Source: an uncultured Pseudomonadota bacterium (lineage in GTDB: Bacteria; Bdellovibrionota_B; Oligoflexia; Oligoflexales; CAIMVM01). From it: a stretch of 35,993 nt of DNA. Position numbers and translations under genes: made by a program. Below are positions 21,153-29,482 of this stretch, in pieces; within the stretch, counting starts at the first letter, position 1; each line of letters opens with the position of its first letter. Below the pieces are notes generated by a model. It searched no databases and had not been told where the DNA came from. It worked only from the letters and a program-made list of their open reading frames with translations. Where the stretch lies: contig CAIMVM010000028.1 of the NCBI GenBank assembly GCA_903844895.1, positions 1-35,993 on the forward strand, read 5' to 3'.

Positions 21153-21860
21153 ATGGGAACAGAGAGCGATTTCGCAATTTTAAAGTATTTGGTTCTAAAA
21201 TCTAGAGACGTTGGGGACATTGACGTGAATGAGGCAGTGAAAAAAACATGGTTAAGGTATCTCAGATATCAAAAGTATCTTTTGGGTGTAGATTTTCTCA
21301 TGGTCTTGATTGTTGCGAGCCTAAGCGCTTGCAGTCACCTTGTTGTCGTCAAAAGTGAACCCTCTGGTGCGCGCGTTAGAATTGTAAATGAAAATGGGAA
21401 ACCTGGGCCCTCGCTTGGTGTGACACCTTTAGATCTGAACTCACTTCCCAATTCCGATGCTGTGGTGCTTGAGATCGACAAAGAGGCTCACCTTCCTAAG
21501 CAAATCGTCGTACCAAAGGCCACAGGAAGTCGTTTGACCATTAGCACCAAGCTGCAGCCTCTTTCTAAAGAGTATCTTGCAGAAAGAAGTCGGGTTGACT
21601 TTGCAGCGTCTTTAAATGCTAATCTCTTCGAAATCTTCAAGCTTCAAAGCCTCGTCATAGAAAAAAATTCTGCTGAGGTAATGAAAATGGAGATAACTAT
21701 GCGTGATCAGTGGGAGGGTATAAGTCTATTTCATTCACTGTTAGGAAATTTCTACTACCTCACAGGAGACTATAAGAAAGCAAAAAATAAATATGAAAAG
21801 GCGCTTTCTCTCGACCCGAGAAATGATGAGGCCCGAAACATGCTAAGCAATTTGAGGTGA
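21153..21860 (+). CDS. PEGA-domain lipoprotein with C-terminal TPR, first gene of motor-like operon
   Basis: 235 residues from the ATG at 21153. The canonical lipobox LSAC (Cys60) follows the hydrophobic stretch GVDFLMVLIVAS, so translation may really begin at the GTG at 21225 (GGGG eight bases upstream) or the GTG at 21237, giving a normal-length signal peptide with basic residues ahead of it. After the lipid cysteine comes a PEGA-type beta domain (VKSEPSGARVRIVNENG...GVTPLDLNSL), common in envelope and surface-layer-associated proteins. A TPR pair (LGNFYYLTGDYKKAKNKYEKALSLDPRNDEARNML) is at the end. It is likely an outer-membrane or periplasmic lipoprotein. It ends three bases before motA. 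Confidence 0.78.
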   Translation: MGTESDFAILKYLVLKSRDVGDIDVNEAVKKTWLRYLRYQKYLLGVDFLMVLIVASLSACSHLVVVKSEPSGARVRIVNENGKPGPSLGVTPLDLNSLPNSDAVVLEIDKEAHLPKQIVVPKATGSRLTISTKLQPLSKEYLAERSRVDFAASLNANLFEIFKLQSLVIEKNSAEVMKMEITMRDQWEGISLFHSLLGNFYYLTGDYKKAKNKYEKALSLDPRNDEARNMLSNLR

Positions 21861-21863
21861 TCT

Positions 21864-22655
21864 ATGGCTAGCTATGCAATTGGTTTTTTAATATCAACAT
21901 TGGTTGTCATAGTTCCCATCTTAGTGATGGCTAATAATCGCGCTGTCTACATTTCTCTAGAAGGATTTGTGATTGTGATAGGTGGAACCATAGGTATTGC
22001 TGTAAGTGCCTTTCCCTTTAAGCGCCTCGTTCATACCATCAAATCTGTAGTTACAATTTTAAAAAATGAAGTGGATGACGGCCCCGTGGTCGTCCGTGAA
22101 ATCATCGAACTGTCTCAAAAAACAAAAGGCGAGAGAGCAAGTCTTAATAAAGAAGTGGACTCTATTAGGTATCCGTTTCTAAAAGACGGCGTTCAATTGA
22201 TCATCGATCGTATTGACCATAAACTCGAAGATATCTTAGTGGATCGCATCAGAACGCGGCAAGAAAACGGTCAGTCGATTGTCAATATAGTGAAGACTTT
22301 GGGTAAGTTTCCACCTGCCTTGGGGCTACTGGCTACGGTGCTATCCCTTGTAACCCTCTTGGAGGGACTTGGCGGTTCTAAATCAGGAATGTCAAGTCTG
22401 GGTCCTTCCATGGCGGTAGGTCTGGTTGGTACCCTTTATGGAATCGTTCTGGCTAACTTAGTGTTTAGCCCGATGGCAGAAAACTTAGCTGTAAAAAGCT
22501 CTCTGGATACCAGAAATCGCCAAATAACGATGGTGGGCCTCTTACTTCTAAGAGATCAGGAAAGTGCTCTTGTAGTCCAGGAATCCTTAAACGCGATGTT
22601 AGAAATTCATCAGAGAGTAGACGTGTTAGGTTTAGACGAAAAGGCGGCTGCATAG
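21864..22655 (+). CDS. motA: MotA/PomA-type stator subunit
   Basis: 263 residues with the four-helix MotA plan: TM at about 4-22 and 31-50, a cytoplasmic domain (about 51-148), TM at 149-168 and 180-203. Signature stretches: FVIVIGGTIGIAVSAFP at TM2, then LGKFPPALGLLATVLSLVTLLEG with the conserved Pro at the start of TM3, and GPSMAVGLVGTLYGIVLANLVFSPMAENL in TM4. Together with MotB it should form an ion-driven rotating or force-generating complex. The gene follows the TPR lipoprotein by three bases and is one base before motB. It is a full MotA, not a TolQ/ExbB homologue (two adjacent N-terminal TMs and the large cytoplasmic loop). Confidence 0.93.
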   Translation: MASYAIGFLISTLVVIVPILVMANNRAVYISLEGFVIVIGGTIGIAVSAFPFKRLVHTIKSVVTILKNEVDDGPVVVREIIELSQKTKGERASLNKEVDSIRYPFLKDGVQLIIDRIDHKLEDILVDRIRTRQENGQSIVNIVKTLGKFPPALGLLATVLSLVTLLEGLGGSKSGMSSLGPSMAVGLVGTLYGIVLANLVFSPMAENLAVKSSLDTRNRQITMVGLLLLRDQESALVVQESLNAMLEIHQRVDVLGLDEKAAA

Positions 22656-22656
22656 A

Positions 22657-23643
22657 ATGGGAAAAAGGCTTGAAAAAATCAAACCTCTTTTAAAGGAGAC
22701 GCCCGCCTCTAAGGTTCAAGTGGTCTATAAACCGGCGCGTGCTAAATTGCATGCGAGTCACCCCGAAGGTCAGGGGGGACATGATGAAGGCGAAGGTACG
22801 TGGATCTTTAGTTACGCGGATATGATCACCATTCTAATGATGTTCTTTATACTACTTCTGTCCATCTCAAGTCTTGATGAACAGAAATTTCAGGAGCTTA
22901 AGGGCGCCATTGCTTCTACAAGCAAAACAGCTTCTAACTCAGGAGATTCTGGAAACATGGGGGAAAGCTCAAACCGGAGCACCATTTCCAAGTCACAAGC
23001 TTTGGAAGCTTATGTCGGAAAAGTTTCGATTATGGCCTTGTCAGAAAAAGCACTTGAGTTGGCGGCATCAGACAGCAATACACAAATTCTTGCCATCATG
23101 CAGATGCTTCTCGGAGCCGTTGATAAAGACGCCATTAAGAATTCTCAAAGGAAGGAAGAGCAGTTCAAAAAAGCTACGAAAGAGCTTGAAACTCTTGCTG
23201 CTGTCAATCAGGCAGAAAAAGTCGCTACTGAGTCGAAGTCCAATGAAATTAAAGTTTTGCTACCTTCCTATCTCTTGTTTGATAGTAAAGGAAGCTTCAC
23301 CGTAAAAGGTAAAAATATTCTTAATCAGCTGTCATCAGGTATGGCAGGACTTGGTGAAAGCTCCCAGATTGCGATTTCCAGCTACGTCAGTAGATCTCAA
23401 CATGAGAATCCTGGAAAAGCTACCGAGATTTCCTCCACTAGGGCTCGTCAGGTCTATGACTATCTGGTGGCCAGGAAAGTTGATGCAGACTCCATCTCCA
23501 TTGCTGGTTATGGCAATAGCAAGAAACTCTTAAACGAGGTAGACGCCTACGGGCGTCGCATTGAAAATGTCAAAAAAATGAATGATCGTCTGGAAATCTT
23601 GATTCGAAAACGGGTTAGAGACAATCGAAAGGGTGAATTATGA
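22657..23643 (+). CDS. motB: MotB-type stator subunit with OmpA peptidoglycan-binding domain
   Basis: 328 residues. One N-terminal TM, WIFSYADMITILMMFFILLLSIS, carries Asp55, the ion-binding residue of MotB. A long linker rich in Ser/Thr and helices follows, then an OmpA/MotB domain (about 195-320) with NQLSSGMAGLG, STRARQVYDYLVARKVDADSISIAGYG and NDRLEILI, which anchors to peptidoglycan. The basic 45-residue N-terminal extension (KIKPLLKETPASKV, with His/Gly-rich HPEGQGGHDEGEG) is longer than usual. It overlaps the next gene by four bases (ATGA). The pair is stator-like and should work with a rotor partner. Confidence 0.93.
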   Translation: MGKRLEKIKPLLKETPASKVQVVYKPARAKLHASHPEGQGGHDEGEGTWIFSYADMITILMMFFILLLSISSLDEQKFQELKGAIASTSKTASNSGDSGNMGESSNRSTISKSQALEAYVGKVSIMALSEKALELAASDSNTQILAIMQMLLGAVDKDAIKNSQRKEEQFKKATKELETLAAVNQAEKVATESKSNEIKVLLPSYLLFDSKGSFTVKGKNILNQLSSGMAGLGESSQIAISSYVSRSQHENPGKATEISSTRARQVYDYLVARKVDADSISIAGYGNSKKLLNEVDAYGRRIENVKKMNDRLEILIRKRVRDNRKGEL

Positions 23644-25769
23644 AATACTTTAGATGGATTTACCTATTTCTTCTGTTGCAGGTAGGAGTCGTATCGGCAG
23701 CGGAACCTAAAAACCCTCCCGCAAAGAATGCAAAGAATGAGCCTGTGGTGCTTACCCCTGAGGTTAACACTATTTTGCAACAAAAAATGGCCAAATATCT
23801 TGAAAATCAGGAAGAGCGTGCGAAGCGTGTTTTGGGGCAGCAGCTCTCTGAGGGACGCTTTATTCTCTACATCAAAGCATCCATAAGTCCTGAAAAAATA
23901 TCTGAACTTTTAAGCAGCAAATCTCAGGACACTAAACTAACATCTCTTCCCATGTCGATGTCTGCCAAAGAACGGCTCAAACTTATGGCCGAGCGCCTTA
24001 CTGTGGACCAAGTGCCTTTATTCATTGGGCCGCTTACGGTTTCTTTGACTTTTGGTAATGATGTTTCTAATGGTCAAATCAATTCTCTTAAGGAAGCGAC
24101 CGCCAACGGGTTAGGGCTTGATTTGAATGCTGGTGATAGTGTCCAAGTCAAAAAAGCAGATTTGCTGCCGCAAAGCGGTAGTAAAGATGTAGAAAAATTA
24201 AGACACGATACCGTCATCGCTCAACAAAAAATTACTCAGTCTGAATCCGAAAATTCGCAACTTAAAAACGATCTAGTGGCAGCTCAGGAAAAGATTGCCA
24301 AAGGGGAGCGAATCATAACAGAGTTTGAGGCTAAGATTCGCGTTCTAGAAGAAGATCTCTCCATTTATAAAACTCCTATGGGAGACATTAAGAGAATTAT
24401 CAAAGGCTTGGAGCTTCCGCTGACAGTGCTTCCCATAGCTCTGGTTTTCTTTATATTTGCATCTTTTCTGTTCTTTCTTTACCTGCGACTTCAGGGCAAC
24501 AAAGCGACTAAATTTTTGGAAGCTGCTGACCTTTTGGCTCAAGGAATGGCTCGAGCGGGAAAAAACAATGCCATCGCAGGCCGTTCCCAGAAGAACGAAA
24601 TAGAGAAAGTCATTCAAGCATCTGAAAATGCTGGCCTAGGAAGTGGGTCAAACGGTCCCATCTTGCTTGGTGATGAAATTGTCACCTTGAAGAATGAAGC
24701 ATTAGAGGCTTGGAAAAATTTAAGCCAGTATCCCTACCTTGTTACGTCAGAACTTCGCGAGTGGCTAGTAGCAGGCGGGGCCCAGACTCAAAAACTTGTG
24801 TCTGTTATGGGAGCCCTGGGGCCAGTGGAAAGCGTAAACCTCCTTCAAAAATTCTCACCCAATGATTTAGCTCAGCTAAGGAAGTTGGAGAATAGCCAAG
24901 ATTCTGCCTCCAAGTTGCCCGGTTACTCTGCTATCCTGCAGCTTCATCGCTTGATTTCAACCCAAATCCTGAATCGCCCAGAAGCTATCATTCGATTGGA
25001 CTTTCCCGAGCTTGTTAAGGCAAGTGATGATGCCTTAGCGGATGCGCTTATCGCCGTCGAGCCCAAAAGTCTAGCCTTGTGCTTGTATATCCTTCCGGAA
25101 AATCGGCGTTTTAAAATCATAGAATCTGGCTCTGCAAAGATGCAACGTGATGCGGTTGAGGGTTTCGCGGCTCTTGAAGGAATAACGCCTGAGAAGATTG
25201 ACATAGAGCTTTCTTCCTTAAGGACGCAGCTGGTTCCCAGTCTCTTGAAGCATGCAGTCATCAAGTTTGCCGTTGCTGACGAAATCAGCCAACTTATGGA
25301 TGAGGTGTCGCCGAAAACAAGGGCTTCTCTACAAGAGGCATTGAGCCAACACAAAAGGCTGGATGATCTCATCAATGCCCGCATGATCACTATGGATGAT
25401 GTACTTACCGTAGACGATGAAACTCTTGGCGAACTTTTAGATGAGTTCTCACCAGAACAAATGGCGACACTTTTAAGTGGTTTGCGTCAAGAGGGGGTGG
25501 GACGAATTTCGAAAATCCTGCCGAGGAAGATGGCCGTTTCTGTGCAAAGTGAGCTATCGAGGCTTTCCTCAAGGCAAGGCTCATTAAAAAGAGCTCAAAA
25601 TCAAAGTTTGGAATATCAGACTTTACTTCGAGATCGCCTAAAAGAGCTTGTAATAGAAGGCGTCGTGGAACTTAACAAGGGAGAGACTTCAAAGTCAAAA
25701 GAGACTGATTCTGTGAATAGTGTTGAAAATGAGCAAGAGTCTCCATCGGACTCTAGGGAGTCTGCGTGA
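23640..25769 (+). CDS. Membrane-anchored FliF-like/FliG-like fusion protein
   Basis: 709 residues in four parts. Signal sequence 1-20 (FRWIYLFLLLQVGVVSA). Periplasmic region about 40-175: residues 55-90 (ENQEERAKRVLGQQLSEGRFILYIKASISPEKI) and 130-175 (PLTVSLTFGNDVSNGQINSLKEA..GLGLDLNAGDSVQVKKADL) resemble the RBM3/YscJ-FliF C-terminal domain of the MS-ring protein FliF, including its GD-x-V-x-V end. A coiled coil (185-245) leads to a TM helix (257-283), the place of FliF TM2. The cytoplasmic part (about 430-680) resembles FliG middle and C-terminal domains: QLHRLISTQILNRPEAI, then ARMITMDDVLTVDDETLGELLDEFSPEQMATLLSGLR and LPRKMAVSVQSEL. FliF and FliG are normally separate proteins. Resemblance is from memory of family patterns, not an alignment. 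Confidence 0.7.
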   Translation: MKYFRWIYLFLLLQVGVVSAAEPKNPPAKNAKNEPVVLTPEVNTILQQKMAKYLENQEERAKRVLGQQLSEGRFILYIKASISPEKISELLSSKSQDTKLTSLPMSMSAKERLKLMAERLTVDQVPLFIGPLTVSLTFGNDVSNGQINSLKEATANGLGLDLNAGDSVQVKKADLLPQSGSKDVEKLRHDTVIAQQKITQSESENSQLKNDLVAAQEKIAKGERIITEFEAKIRVLEEDLSIYKTPMGDIKRIIKGLELPLTVLPIALVFFIFASFLFFLYLRLQGNKATKFLEAADLLAQGMARAGKNNAIAGRSQKNEIEKVIQASENAGLGSGSNGPILLGDEIVTLKNEALEAWKNLSQYPYLVTSELREWLVAGGAQTQKLVSVMGALGPVESVNLLQKFSPNDLAQLRKLENSQDSASKLPGYSAILQLHRLISTQILNRPEAIIRLDFPELVKASDDALADALIAVEPKSLALCLYILPENRRFKIIESGSAKMQRDAVEGFAALEGITPEKIDIELSSLRTQLVPSLLKHAVIKFAVADEISQLMDEVSPKTRASLQEALSQHKRLDDLINARMITMDDVLTVDDETLGELLDEFSPEQMATLLSGLRQEGVGRISKILPRKMAVSVQSELSRLSSRQGSLKRAQNQSLEYQTLLRDRLKELVIEGVVELNKGETSKSKETDSVNSVENEQESPSDSRESA

Positions 25770-26455
25770 GCTTAGAGAAGGCATATTTCTTTCTTAGAAA
25801 TTTAAGCCAGACATTCAAAAAGCAAGAAATGGGCGATGTTCTATCTGGCCCAAAGCTGCTCACATTTTGGCTTTGTTTTTCTGCTTTAGGAGCTAGCCAA
25901 GCCAAAGCTGGTAGTGAACATTTACTTTCAGTCTCTAGCCAAGTTACGAGTATTGGAACAAAATTTGGAAATCAGGACATCAAAATATTGTCGCCCTTTG
26001 GCGTTGTGGGCCGTTATGACTACCGACCGGGTTTTTCCTCTTCCTTATACACAAACTACGTGGCGGTGTCTGACGGTAAAGGAATCATCTTAAATAGCTA
26101 TGGATTCGGCGGCGACTATTCCGTCTTGGGAGGGATGACGAAGCGTTTAGCAGCCGGTGATGATAATAGCTTTGAGTTCTATTACGGATATCGCTTGAGT
26201 GCATTTGCAGGATTTTCTTTCGGAACCTACGACTTCGGAGATTTCGTGGATTCCCAATCCTTTTCTCTAGGCGATAAAATTAAGGCCAAAGGTCGGATTT
26301 CGGGCCTCGAGATGGGGTTAGGTATGGAGATTAACTTAGGAAGTGACAGCATGGTGGTCACTCGTATGAGCTTTAGCTCCCCATCTATAGAAAACAACTC
26401 TCAGCAGTCAGGCAGTGTATTGTCTCTTTCTGTAGGTTTAGGGAAAATCTTATGA
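25766..26455 (+). CDS. Outer-membrane-type beta-strand protein of the operon
   Basis: 229 residues from a GTG that overlaps the previous stop by four bases (GTGA). A signal peptide with a long N-region ends near residue 47 (LLTFWLCFSALGASQAKA). The mature part is made of alternating short strands rich in Gly, Ser, Tyr and Phe (SSSLYTNYVAVSDG, FEFYYGYRLSAFAGFSFGTYDFG, ISGLEMGLGMEINLG) and ends SVLSLSVGLGKIL. This pattern suits a small beta-barrel or an outer-membrane-associated protein. No named family recognised. In this operon it could link the motor module to the outer membrane, but that is inferred from position only. Confidence 0.6.
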   Translation: MSLEKAYFFLRNLSQTFKKQEMGDVLSGPKLLTFWLCFSALGASQAKAGSEHLLSVSSQVTSIGTKFGNQDIKILSPFGVVGRYDYRPGFSSSLYTNYVAVSDGKGIILNSYGFGGDYSVLGGMTKRLAAGDDNSFEFYYGYRLSAFAGFSFGTYDFGDFVDSQSFSLGDKIKAKGRISGLEMGLGMEINLGSDSMVVTRMSFSSPSIENNSQQSGSVLSLSVGLGKIL

Positions 26456-27363
26456 AAAACGTCTCCCCCCCTCAAATGATTTTCCTAGAAATTAAAGAAT
26501 TCAAGACTTTCGGCAAGTCTCTAGGAATGCGTTCTATTTGTAGATGGATGTTGACGTCCCGTCTATTATTCTTTGTAGTATTCTTTCTATTTTTATTTCT
26601 ATTTCAAGTTTCGACGAGAGCTTGGGGAGCCTCGGTGGCGGCAAGGCTCACCAAATTTGAGGGGAAAATAGATTATAGACAAAGGGGTTCGATCAATTGG
26701 ATGCCCATAGGGGATGTTCGTGATCTTCAGCCAGGTGATTTGCTTTTTTTAAAAAAAAGCGCTAGTGCTGAGATTCAGTATATAGAGAGTGGGACGATGG
26801 TCCAACTTTCTGATCAAACATTATTTCGAGTGACGCAGAAAGTTCCAGTACACAGCAAGAGGGTCCACGTTTTCGGCTTTGAGAAGAACAATGTTTCCGT
26901 CAATCCACAAAAAAAACGCAATCCCTTCGAGCGTCGCATGGTTCGCAATGCGAATGAAGCTCCCGAGGGAGAGACTCAAAAGGAGAGTCGTCTGCAGGTA
27001 TACCGAAATGTATCAGAGATTGCACTCGCAAAGCCGCTTGCTGGTAGCATTTTTGTAGTGCGCCAGTTTCCTGCCAAATTGCTCGTCAAAATTGCCAAAG
27101 TGAGAGCAGAAAATAAGTATTGGGTATTTGTTTGGGGAGAGGAAGATAATGTGACGCCGATTTGGTCGAGTTACTCCAATGGCGAATTTTCCGACATCAC
27201 CATTGATCGTCCAGGAACATACGAAATTCAGGTATTTAATGAAAATGAGACAGAAATTTCTGATCCCCTCAAGGTGATATACCAGAAATCTGACGAAAAT
27301 TTTAGTGATTTAGGATCGAAGTTGAGCAATTTAAAAGGCGATCAGACAGTCATTCTGGAGTGA
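26452..27363 (+). CDS. FecR-domain periplasmic protein
   Basis: 303 residues. The ATG overlaps the previous stop by four bases; internal ATGs at 26527 and 26548 would give shorter signal sequences. A strong hydrophobic segment (RLLFFVVFFLFLFLFQVS, about residues 37-54) ends at an AWGA cleavage site. Residues about 62-125 match the FecR fold: VAARLTKFEGKIDYRQRGSINWMPIGDVRDLQPGDLLFLKKSASAEIQY and then VQLSDQTLFRV. A basic stretch (KKRNPFERRMVR) and a C-terminal beta-rich half follow, possibly a Fn3/Ig-like fold. No FecI-type sigma factor or TonB receptor is near, so this is not an iron-uptake FecR. It is paired with a SpoIIE phosphatase. Confidence 0.72.
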   Translation: MKNVSPPQMIFLEIKEFKTFGKSLGMRSICRWMLTSRLLFFVVFFLFLFLFQVSTRAWGASVAARLTKFEGKIDYRQRGSINWMPIGDVRDLQPGDLLFLKKSASAEIQYIESGTMVQLSDQTLFRVTQKVPVHSKRVHVFGFEKNNVSVNPQKKRNPFERRMVRNANEAPEGETQKESRLQVYRNVSEIALAKPLAGSIFVVRQFPAKLLVKIAKVRAENKYWVFVWGEEDNVTPIWSSYSNGEFSDITIDRPGTYEIQVFNENETEISDPLKVIYQKSDENFSDLGSKLSNLKGDQTVILE

Positions 27364-27367
27364 GATT

Positions 27368-29482
27368 GTGTCTAAAATCATTTCCATTTTTATTAAATCG
27401 TGGCGCAACTTAGCTTTCTCCGAGAGGATTGCGCTTGTATCCATTGTCGTGGGGACCTTTGTCTTTTTAACTTCCATTTCATTTGTGGCTTTTATGTATC
27501 GCTCGGATAAAGAAGCGTACCTCTATGAACTTCAAATGCTGCGTGCTCGATCCGCTTCCAATACGTACTCTTCGAGCCTTTCTAATAGCAAGGCCTACGG
27601 AAAGAAGTTGGTTTTAAGTTCAGATGCGTCTTCAATTAAGTCTTTGGGTCTAGCAAGACTTCCTGAGGGTGAAGAAGTCTTTGTAGTTTCCGGCAAAATT
27701 TTAGCTGGGCTTTTAAATGTTGACCTATCTAAAGATAAGAAAAAGATGTTTTCTGTATTTAGAGATGTTAATGGCGACCTGATGTATTCCGCAAGTGTCC
27801 TTCCTGAGCCTGAATTAGAAGATGGCACAATGCATGTTTTGACGGCTGATGGGTTGCTGATTTCTTCTTCCGGTACCAATGTAATGACGCAGAGTCGAGT
27901 TAAAGAAAATCAAGCGATTAAGGTTGGTCTCGCCAGTAATTTAACAGAAAGTACGAATACGATCGAAAGCGGTGAGACCAAGGTCATAGTTTCTCAAAAA
28001 GAGGTCCCACATACAAATGTTTTTGTCTTTGCTGAGGTGCCCGTATCCAGTCTTATGATGCCATTTTGGAAGATGTTGCAACTTTGGGTGATTTTTGGAT
28101 ATGTCTTGATTTTAGCTGGTGCCGCTGTTTCTTACATTATAACTAAGAAAGTAGCTGCTCCGACTAGAGAGGCTGCAGACCATATTCTTAAATTGACTAG
28201 GGGTGATTTCTCGATAAGAACGTCTTATAAAAACACAGATGAATTTCAAGTTATTTTTTCTGGAATTGACTTTCTAGCAGAACACGTGCAATTGAGAGAA
28301 CGTCGCCTTACGGCATTCGTATCTGGACTCGGTACCATTCTTAGCAAGTCAGCAGTTTGGGAAGAGAACTGGGATATAGACGAATTTTATAGAAACTCCT
28401 GCAAGCTCCTTGGTGGGCTTCTTAGTGGCTATAAGTTGCGCGGATTTGAGATGATCTATGAGGGTGATACAGCATTCTATGATTTAGAATTGAACTCTTT
28501 GGTACTTGGATTCGATTCAGCTCAATCCCTTTTAAAAGTGCATACCCTAAAGGTGCTATCTCACTCTGGTAAGCTGCAAATGGAGTTCAGGATTCTTGCT
28601 GGTTCCAGCGTGGACTTTTTGCCAGAGACTCTTCAAATTCTTACACAGTTTTCCGAGACTGTCGCTTCCTATTTTGACAGAAGGCGAGCTGCAGCCGCGC
28701 ATAAAGAAAAAGGGGAGCAAGAAAGAGAGATCCTATTAGCCGCTGAAATTCAGCGAAGTCTAGTCAACTATCCTGAGATTATCCCCGGTGTCAATTTCAA
28801 AAATGTATATGTTCCTGCTGGCCACGTAGGCGGCGACTGGAGTTCTGCGTACTATAATAGCTCGAGTGGATGGATGTACTTTTTCGTGGGTGATGCTACG
28901 GGCCACGGCATTGCTTCCTCCCTAGTTACTGCCGTTGTGGGCGGAGCCTCCAGATTGTTTAATAAAATCTTCGGTGAAGCGACGTTCACAGATGACAACG
29001 ATGTGGCCATGCGACTTGCTGACCTTTCTGTGAATTTAAACGAGATTGTTCTAGAAGCAGGCTCTAATAAGATTGGAATGACTATGATTCTAGGCGCTCT
29101 CAATTCCCGGTCCGGAAAATTGACGCTATTGAATCTTGGTCATCCATCTCCCGTATGGTATGCGCCAAAGGGTGTTGCGGATGTGGAAAAACCCATATTG
29201 CCTAATAATAACTTGCTGGGTAGTTCGGAATTTTCTTTGCCTCGATCTAAGACCTTTCAACTTGTGCCAGGCCAAGGATTCATCTTATTTACGGACGGAC
29301 TTTTAGAAAACTATTCTGGAAAATTAAAACGAAAAGAGCTTAAAAACTTGTTAACGGGAGCTTCCGATATTTCTAGTGCGGTAGAGGGAGTCACTCAAAA
29401 ATACCACTCCCTTGCAGATGGTCAGCTCGCTGGAGATGATGTTGCGATTCTGGGCGTGCAGTGGTTAGGTAATATTACCTAA
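27368..29482 (+). CDS. Membrane HAMP-SpoIIE (PP2C) serine phosphatase
   Basis: 704 residues from a GTG four bases after the FecR gene. TM1 (about 21-43), a periplasmic sensory region, TM2 (about 232-257), a HAMP linker (about 258-312), a middle domain without assignment, and a C-terminal PP2C/SpoIIE domain (about 466-704). The metal-binding aspartates are in place: GGDWSSAYYN, FFVGDATGHGIASSL, ILFTDGLLENYSG and AGDDVAILGVQ. RsbU/SpoIIE phosphatases dephosphorylate anti-anti-sigma (STAS) proteins or other Ser/Thr phosphoproteins in partner-switching systems. No STAS or anti-sigma gene is nearby. It is the last gene of the seven-gene operon, so it probably senses or controls that machine. Confidence 0.9.
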   Translation: MSKIISIFIKSWRNLAFSERIALVSIVVGTFVFLTSISFVAFMYRSDKEAYLYELQMLRARSASNTYSSSLSNSKAYGKKLVLSSDASSIKSLGLARLPEGEEVFVVSGKILAGLLNVDLSKDKKKMFSVFRDVNGDLMYSASVLPEPELEDGTMHVLTADGLLISSSGTNVMTQSRVKENQAIKVGLASNLTESTNTIESGETKVIVSQKEVPHTNVFVFAEVPVSSLMMPFWKMLQLWVIFGYVLILAGAAVSYIITKKVAAPTREAADHILKLTRGDFSIRTSYKNTDEFQVIFSGIDFLAEHVQLRERRLTAFVSGLGTILSKSAVWEENWDIDEFYRNSCKLLGGLLSGYKLRGFEMIYEGDTAFYDLELNSLVLGFDSAQSLLKVHTLKVLSHSGKLQMEFRILAGSSVDFLPETLQILTQFSETVASYFDRRRAAAAHKEKGEQEREILLAAEIQRSLVNYPEIIPGVNFKNVYVPAGHVGGDWSSAYYNSSSGWMYFFVGDATGHGIASSLVTAVVGGASRLFNKIFGEATFTDDNDVAMRLADLSVNLNEIVLEAGSNKIGMTMILGALNSRSGKLTLLNLGHPSPVWYAPKGVADVEKPILPNNNLLGSSEFSLPRSKTFQLVPGQGFILFTDGLLENYSGKLKRKELKNLLTGASDISSAVEGVTQKYHSLADGQLAGDDVAILGVQWLGNIT

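Follow-up and report, generated by a model that had tools for sequence, protein, structure and literature searches.

Positions 21153-29482 of the 35,993-nucleotide contig CAIMVM010000028.1 (the window), from an uncultured bacterium of the class Oligoflexia, carry a seven-gene operon (genes A to G, Table 1). We consider it probable (about 0.78) that its products form an ion-driven rotary machine of the cell envelope that is not a flagellum. It combines a flagellar-type MotA/MotB stator with a protein, here termed D, in which a FliF-like ring domain and FliG are joined in one chain. A machine of this kind had been suggested in an earlier reading of the DNA letters alone (the sequence-only reading). 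FliF and FliG both count as flagellar components. If stator and rotor are conserved as a module while the remaining flagellum is missing, torque generation can exist as a machine in its own right, with consequences for ideas on the origin or dismantling of flagella. The parts are known, but the open-access literature searched describes neither such a FliF-FliG fusion operon nor such an assembly outside the flagellum (subscription papers and preprints lay outside the search).

Protein D joins a FliF-like ring domain to FliG

Protein D is predicted to consist of an N-terminal segment, a periplasmic domain resembling RBM3 of FliF (residues ~40-175), a coiled coil (183-240), a transmembrane helix (261-279) and the cytoplasmic N, M and C domains of FliG (~380-680). 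Its relatives share this order, with an N-terminal signal-like segment, 200-400 residues, one transmembrane helix and 300-400 residues containing FliG. The FliG_C model (PF01706) matched D at 1.8e-9 and exceeded its curated cut-off, while the fliG model TIGR00207 matched at 1.1e-6, under its equivalog cut-off. Against sequences of the PDB, FliG was found (1lkv, 2.7e-7), and in a profile-profile comparison (hhalign) with the true FliG of the same class the match spanned the N, M and C domains (98.6%, E 9e-16).

The FliF part of D from the window had no Pfam match itself. The FliF model PF08345 matched two D relatives (0.0017), and a profile of 19 D N-domains matched the RBM3 region of same-class FliF at 85.8% (E 5.3e-6) in a profile-profile comparison, the controls (reversed FliF, FliG, MotA, MotB and other operon proteins) all remaining below 1%. 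With a profile from the eight closest sequences alone the FliF match failed (4%). An AlphaFold model of D had a mean predicted local distance difference test score (pLDDT) of 75.6, with most of the ring domain and FliG part at 80-95. When the model was compared to the PDB with Foldseek, FliG took ranks 1-13 (best 2.9e-6), followed to about rank 31 by FliF MS-ring structures (E 0.09-0.4, probabilities near 1); two injectisome ring structures were found among the FliF-type matches, and there was little of note besides. With three agreeing weak-to-moderate lines, the assignment of the N-domain as FliF RBM3-like is well supported by sequence profiles and modelling. Only the RBM3 part is present; D is without RBM1-2, and the single copy of PF01514 in the genome belongs to a separate FliF on contig C298.

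By profile comparison and predicted structure, D is a real FliF-FliG fusion with one predicted transmembrane helix. Both similarities anticipated in the sequence-only reading were therefore found, and the refutation that it had named, a D protein resembling neither FliF nor FliG, fails. In an alignment of 39 D proteins with true FliG, the position of E. coli R281 was basic in 27 and that of D289 acidic in 31; in the window protein E638 corresponds to D289.

The stator is of the flagellar type

MotA and MotB were recognized as had been claimed. MotA (gene B) matched PF01618 at 2.6e-16, with PomA/MotA as the closest solved structures (2e-24), and MotB (gene C) matched MotB_plug (1.3e-16), OmpA (1.1e-8) and solved MotB chains, with the ion-binding Asp read at residue 55. 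Flagellar and non-flagellar stators are kept apart in a recent survey, which treats the flagellar group as motility-specific (PMC12505986). By the features that this survey uses for its FIT group, the operon stator belongs there, being nearer to MotA/PomA than to TolQ/ExbB and having the MotB plug and Asp.

In a MotA tree the operon MotA lay apart from the TolQ type and grouped with other D-associated MotA. The D-associated MotA fell in few groups (5 changes vs 15.5 in shuffles) but did not form one clade, so the data do not establish that the whole system arose once. The MotA of the ~850-residue D type was placed beside a flagellar-like MotA of the source genome, and long branches left the placement of loci L083 and L193 uncertain. 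Named matches for the closest MotA were mostly metagenome-assembled genomes (MAGs) of Silvanigrellales, which points to a relative of Oligoflexia.

A four-gene core is conserved across relatives

The order lipoprotein-MotA-MotB-D is a conserved core in Oligoflexia and Bdellovibrionota. Named relatives were gathered with MotA as query, and the class-level comparison comprised 58 genomes of one class. Per-gene profiles found D with MotA, MotB and the lipoprotein in same-class loci, often together with E-, F- and SpoIIE-like genes. Neighbour clustering of ~43 loci, which were chosen for D and include some at contig ends and a few of divergent types, gave the D family in 43, MotA and MotB in 39 each, the lipoprotein in 36, the gene G (SpoIIE) homologue in 17 (the Bdellovibrio cluster included) and gene F in 16. 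A scan of genome contigs with a single D sequence gave no match, and an alignment of six D sequences showed no stretch of sufficient conservation for scanning.

We also carried out the neighbourhood search across Bdellovibrionota that the sequence-only reading had proposed. With the D N-domain alone as query, 104 of 369 Bdellovibrionota genomes matched at E<=1e-7. Twenty further D loci, hand-picked among the mid- and low-ranking matches of this list, had MotA adjoining in every case, MotB in 19 and the lipoprotein in 18. By chance, ~4% of random sites would have a MotA/ExbB gene within 8 kb (an estimate from 7-13 such genes per 3.5-3.8-Mb genome). Since D was here found by its own N-domain, a chance neighbourhood of D and MotAB was rejected.

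The four core genes recur in roughly a hundred genomes or more, spread over two phyla. This argues against the operon being the decayed remnant of a second flagellum, functionless or in transition, as do its long open frames and conserved catalytic and torque residues. Such a remnant would account for parts derived from flagellar proteins, and the genome does have a paralogous operon and a lone FliG fusion (loci L035 and L028, below); we nevertheless regard it as highly improbable.

A related cluster in Bdellovibrio

Genome G193, which we take to be B. bacteriovorus HD100, has a related locus (L175). It encodes a HAMP-bearing SpoIIE phosphatase (2e-33), D, a barrel-type protein and a TPR lipoprotein, together with MotB and MotA at ~2.919 Mb. 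Here D has 577 residues, lies on the complement strand at about 2,913,420-2,915,153 and matches FliG_C (4.6e-10), FliG_M (1.4e-7) and FliG_N (2e-5). Its AlphaFold model (mean pLDDT 73.3) found the same two families in the PDB, FliG and FliF, and fitted FliG C-terminal domains at 1.9-2.6 A. The C-terminal domain of the model superposed on FliG, MotAB-bound FliG included, at 1.9 A over 83 columns (TM 0.79).

Matched by genome position rather than by annotated record, the MotAB of this locus are motAB2 (Bd3021/Bd3020; names from PMC11323537). The genes Bd3014-Bd3019 were named in no Bdellovibrio paper of the open-access literature searched. Bdellovibrio is described as gliding without help from flagella or pili and by machinery yet to be identified, and a 2026 review calls the identification of the gliding motor a major open challenge (PMC13104615). 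The D/motAB2 cluster offers a named, deletable gliding-motor candidate in a model predator.

The operon is independent of the flagellum

The source genome (a 4.23-Mb draft in 372 contigs, completeness 95.6%) has one true FliF (C298), one FlhA (C38) and one true FliG (C133), all off the window. It has eight MotA/ExbB-family genes, and of the seven besides that of the operon two adjoin MotB-like genes. The alternative that the operon is the only flagellar motAB set of the organism, which would have ended the sequence-only reading, is thus contradicted. Two of the 58 class genomes, G001 (96% complete) and G021 (93%), gave no match to FliF or FlhA, an absence that is strong but not absolute, the sampled genomes being mostly MAGs. 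In both, the sole FliG_C protein is D, and it adjoins MotAB. The operon is hence independent of the flagellum, as the non-flagellar reading had it.

Genes for FliM, FliN, the export gate, the rod, the hook and the filament are all absent from the seven-gene cluster. The nearest flanking genes of known family are CorC/HlyC-like, YbeY and TrmB, and neither these nor other housekeeping genes nearby are tied to motility, in agreement with the earlier statement that flagellar structural genes are missing from the operon. A second flagellar system was rejected, given a D without RBM1-2, no FlhA within the window and no rod, hook or filament gene among the flanking genes tested, some flanking open reading frames having no Pfam match.

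It could be imagined that the operon MotAB powers the ordinary flagellum, while D, resembling FliG, serves as a docking or clutch element for recruiting or storing stators. A flagellum is also encoded in most operon-bearing genomes, and expression of motA2/motB2 in Bdellovibrio is altered in fliL mutants (PMC11323537). In the same work, however, FliL-Bd1076 was found to bind MotB3 and not MotB2. The two genomes without FliF or FlhA match also speak against an accessory stator, as do the packaging of the operon with a lipoprotein and a barrel instead of flagellar genes and the clustering of operon-type MotA apart from most MotA without D linkage. We consider this explanation unlikely.

Several observations nevertheless weigh against a non-flagellar machine or its role in gliding, besides the MAG origin of the sampled genomes. 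The motAB2 genes have previously been treated as encoding a flagellar stator, and according to the title of Morehouse et al. 2011 three motAB products reportedly contribute to the motility of the single flagellum. The torque residues at the positions of K264 and D288 are poorly conserved in D relatives, the latter position being acidic in just 16 of the 39 proteins. No adhesin-like genes adjoin the operon in the window. Finally, aglQ (bd1480), a competing gliding candidate, shows increased expression on surfaces (PMC9140294).

Proposed machine and its output

In the flagellar motor MotA pushes FliG, and RBM3 of FliF builds rings. By analogy, D subunits would assemble an inner-membrane ring via their FliF-like RBM3 domains, and MotA5B2 stators, tethered to peptidoglycan by MotB, would push the FliG part of D. 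Stator and ring would act like their flagellar counterparts, except that a single chain supplies both the rotor ring and the C-ring component. Through its periplasmic RBM3/coiled-coil part the ring may drive the TPR/PEGA lipoprotein and the small barrel of the outer membrane, and these in turn may relay the motion to surface proteins. The SpoIIE phosphatase could serve as a membrane-sensor switch over activity or expression.

A different arrangement would be a Tol/Ton-like energiser, in which MotAB rotates and D is a static adaptor that pulls or pushes the lipoprotein and barrel for outer-membrane maintenance, uptake or secretion, with no large ring turning. The conserved lipoprotein and barrel partners and the peptidoglycan-binding domain of MotB would suit this, and other 5:2 motors act on the envelope (PMC9389320). 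Against it, D retains the composition of a rotor, with a ring-building FliF domain and a complete FliG that keeps torque-helix charges, and MotA is of the flagellar and not the TolQ/ExbB type; we find a static adaptor improbable.

For the rotary machine, the likeliest output would be surface movement (gliding) or the driving of adhesins. Gliding is favoured because the model predator of the phylum glides without flagella or pili by a motor that is still sought; we put it slightly short of an even chance. In several related loci large NHL, FG-GAP or fn3 repeat proteins adjoin, and their domain content fits adhesins. More tentatively, and with doubt outweighing belief, the loci may represent an undescribed, widespread class of machines in which MotAB and a fused FliF-FliG ring turn a non-flagellar envelope part, acting in Bdellovibrio (motAB2 cluster) as the gliding motor.

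Comparison with known systems

The operon shares with the bacterial flagellar motor the flagellar-type MotA/MotB, FliF RBM3, FliG N-M-C and the torque-helix charges. It differs in that FliF and FliG are one chain with FliF reduced to RBM3, in having a lipoprotein, a barrel and a phosphatase in place of FliM/FliN, export, rod, hook and filament genes, and in its presence in two relatives without flagellar FliF/FlhA. Engineered FliF-FliG fusions of Salmonella likewise assemble rings from a single chain (PMC6079021). Those described there are full-length laboratory constructs, whereas D is natural, without FliF RBM1/2, and encoded with its own stators.

The AglRQS-Glt system of Myxococcus resembles the operon in having an ion-driven MotAB-family channel, proposed to drive gliding, and trans-envelope partners. 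However, AglRQS is placed in a TolQR-like group, and no use of FliG or FliF by it is known. An Agl-type motor was rejected, since the operon MotA lies apart from the TolQ type and closest to PomA/MotA. In Bdellovibrio, aglQ (bd1480) is a locus distinct from the motAB2 cluster, at ~1.40 Mb judged by locus-tag number. GldLM, the type IX secretion and gliding motor of Bacteroidota, is also a 5:2-type motor coupled to outer-membrane partners, but it has no sequence homology to MotAB (PMC9389320) and no FliF/FliG rotor; a Gld-type system was rejected too. Zorya (ZorAB) likewise has a MotAB-family channel outside the flagellum; a PADLOC scan of MotA, MotB, D and the phosphatase gave only a weak generic ZorB match and no effector family, and Zorya was rejected.

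Gene layout and the remaining operon genes

The seven plus-strand open reading frames were reproduced as previously described, separated by gaps of 3, 1 and 4 bp and by three 4-bp overlaps.

Table 1. Genes of the operon, with their positions in the window and the basis of assignment
Gene	Product	Position	Strand	Basis
A	TPR lipoprotein with PEGA-like fold motif	21153..21860	+	TPR_2, family alignment
B	MotA, flagellar (PomA/MotA) type stator subunit	21864..22655	+	PF01618, PomA structures, tree
C	MotB, ion-binding Asp55 and OmpA-type peptidoglycan-binding domain	22657..23643	+	MotB_plug, OmpA, sequence
D	709-residue FliF-FliG fused rotor protein (predicted)	23640..25769	+	Pfam, profile-profile, AlphaFold/Foldseek
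E	~200-residue outer-membrane beta-barrel-like protein	25766..26455	+	Family with relatives, weak barrel-type matches
F	Membrane-anchored envelope protein	26452..27363	+	Homologues in related loci
G	Membrane sensor, C-terminal SpoIIE (PPM-type) phosphatase domain	27368..29482	+	SpoIIE 5.5e-24

Gene A had been called a PEGA/TPR lipoprotein. The TPR part was confirmed (TPR_2, 1.6e-8), while PEGA was a weak match (0.2), although an LGxTP motif and the lipobox Cys were invariant in the family alignment. Because the lipobox Cys is residue 60 when counted from 21153, the real start of gene A is probably downstream of this position. Gene E of the window had no Pfam match; its relatives in L038, L035 and L042 form one family, and same-position neighbours gave weak barrel-type matches, in line with the outer-membrane-type protein proposed. 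For gene F no Pfam family was found above noise, and the FecR assignment was dropped, no FecR model being detected in gene F or its relatives. The SpoIIE assignment of gene G held.

Further FliG- and FliF-related loci

A second, divergent copy of the system was found in the source genome (L035, contig C79, 3672-14406). It encodes a 764-residue D-like protein with Pfam FliG similarity at noise level, together with lipoprotein, barrel-like, MotB, F and SpoIIE homologues, and has MotA on the opposite strand. The same genome has a lone membrane protein of 738 residues that contains the M and C domains of FliG and adjoins type IV pilus-like genes (L028, contig C361, 5851-8067), and a 160-residue protein with the FliG C-terminal domain only (L029, 14127-14609), which shares contig C133 with the true FliG.

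Many genomes of the class have FliG_C proteins of 740-850 residues, and several of these proteins lie away from MotAB. A class-wide FliG_C search also showed that many genomes have, in addition to the flagellar FliG, another FliG of ~335 residues with a lower score. In L082, L084, L095 and L098 a second type was observed, with MotA, MotB and a FliG fusion of ~840-880 residues among different conserved neighbours, and in L261 (351-11205) two MotAB-plus-FliG-fusion systems are adjacent within one genome. A separate protein of 330-343 residues with a FliF-like N-domain only adjoins D in L180 (7217-8245), L181 (6620-7612) and L182 (9679-10710), as if two kinds of ring subunit were used.

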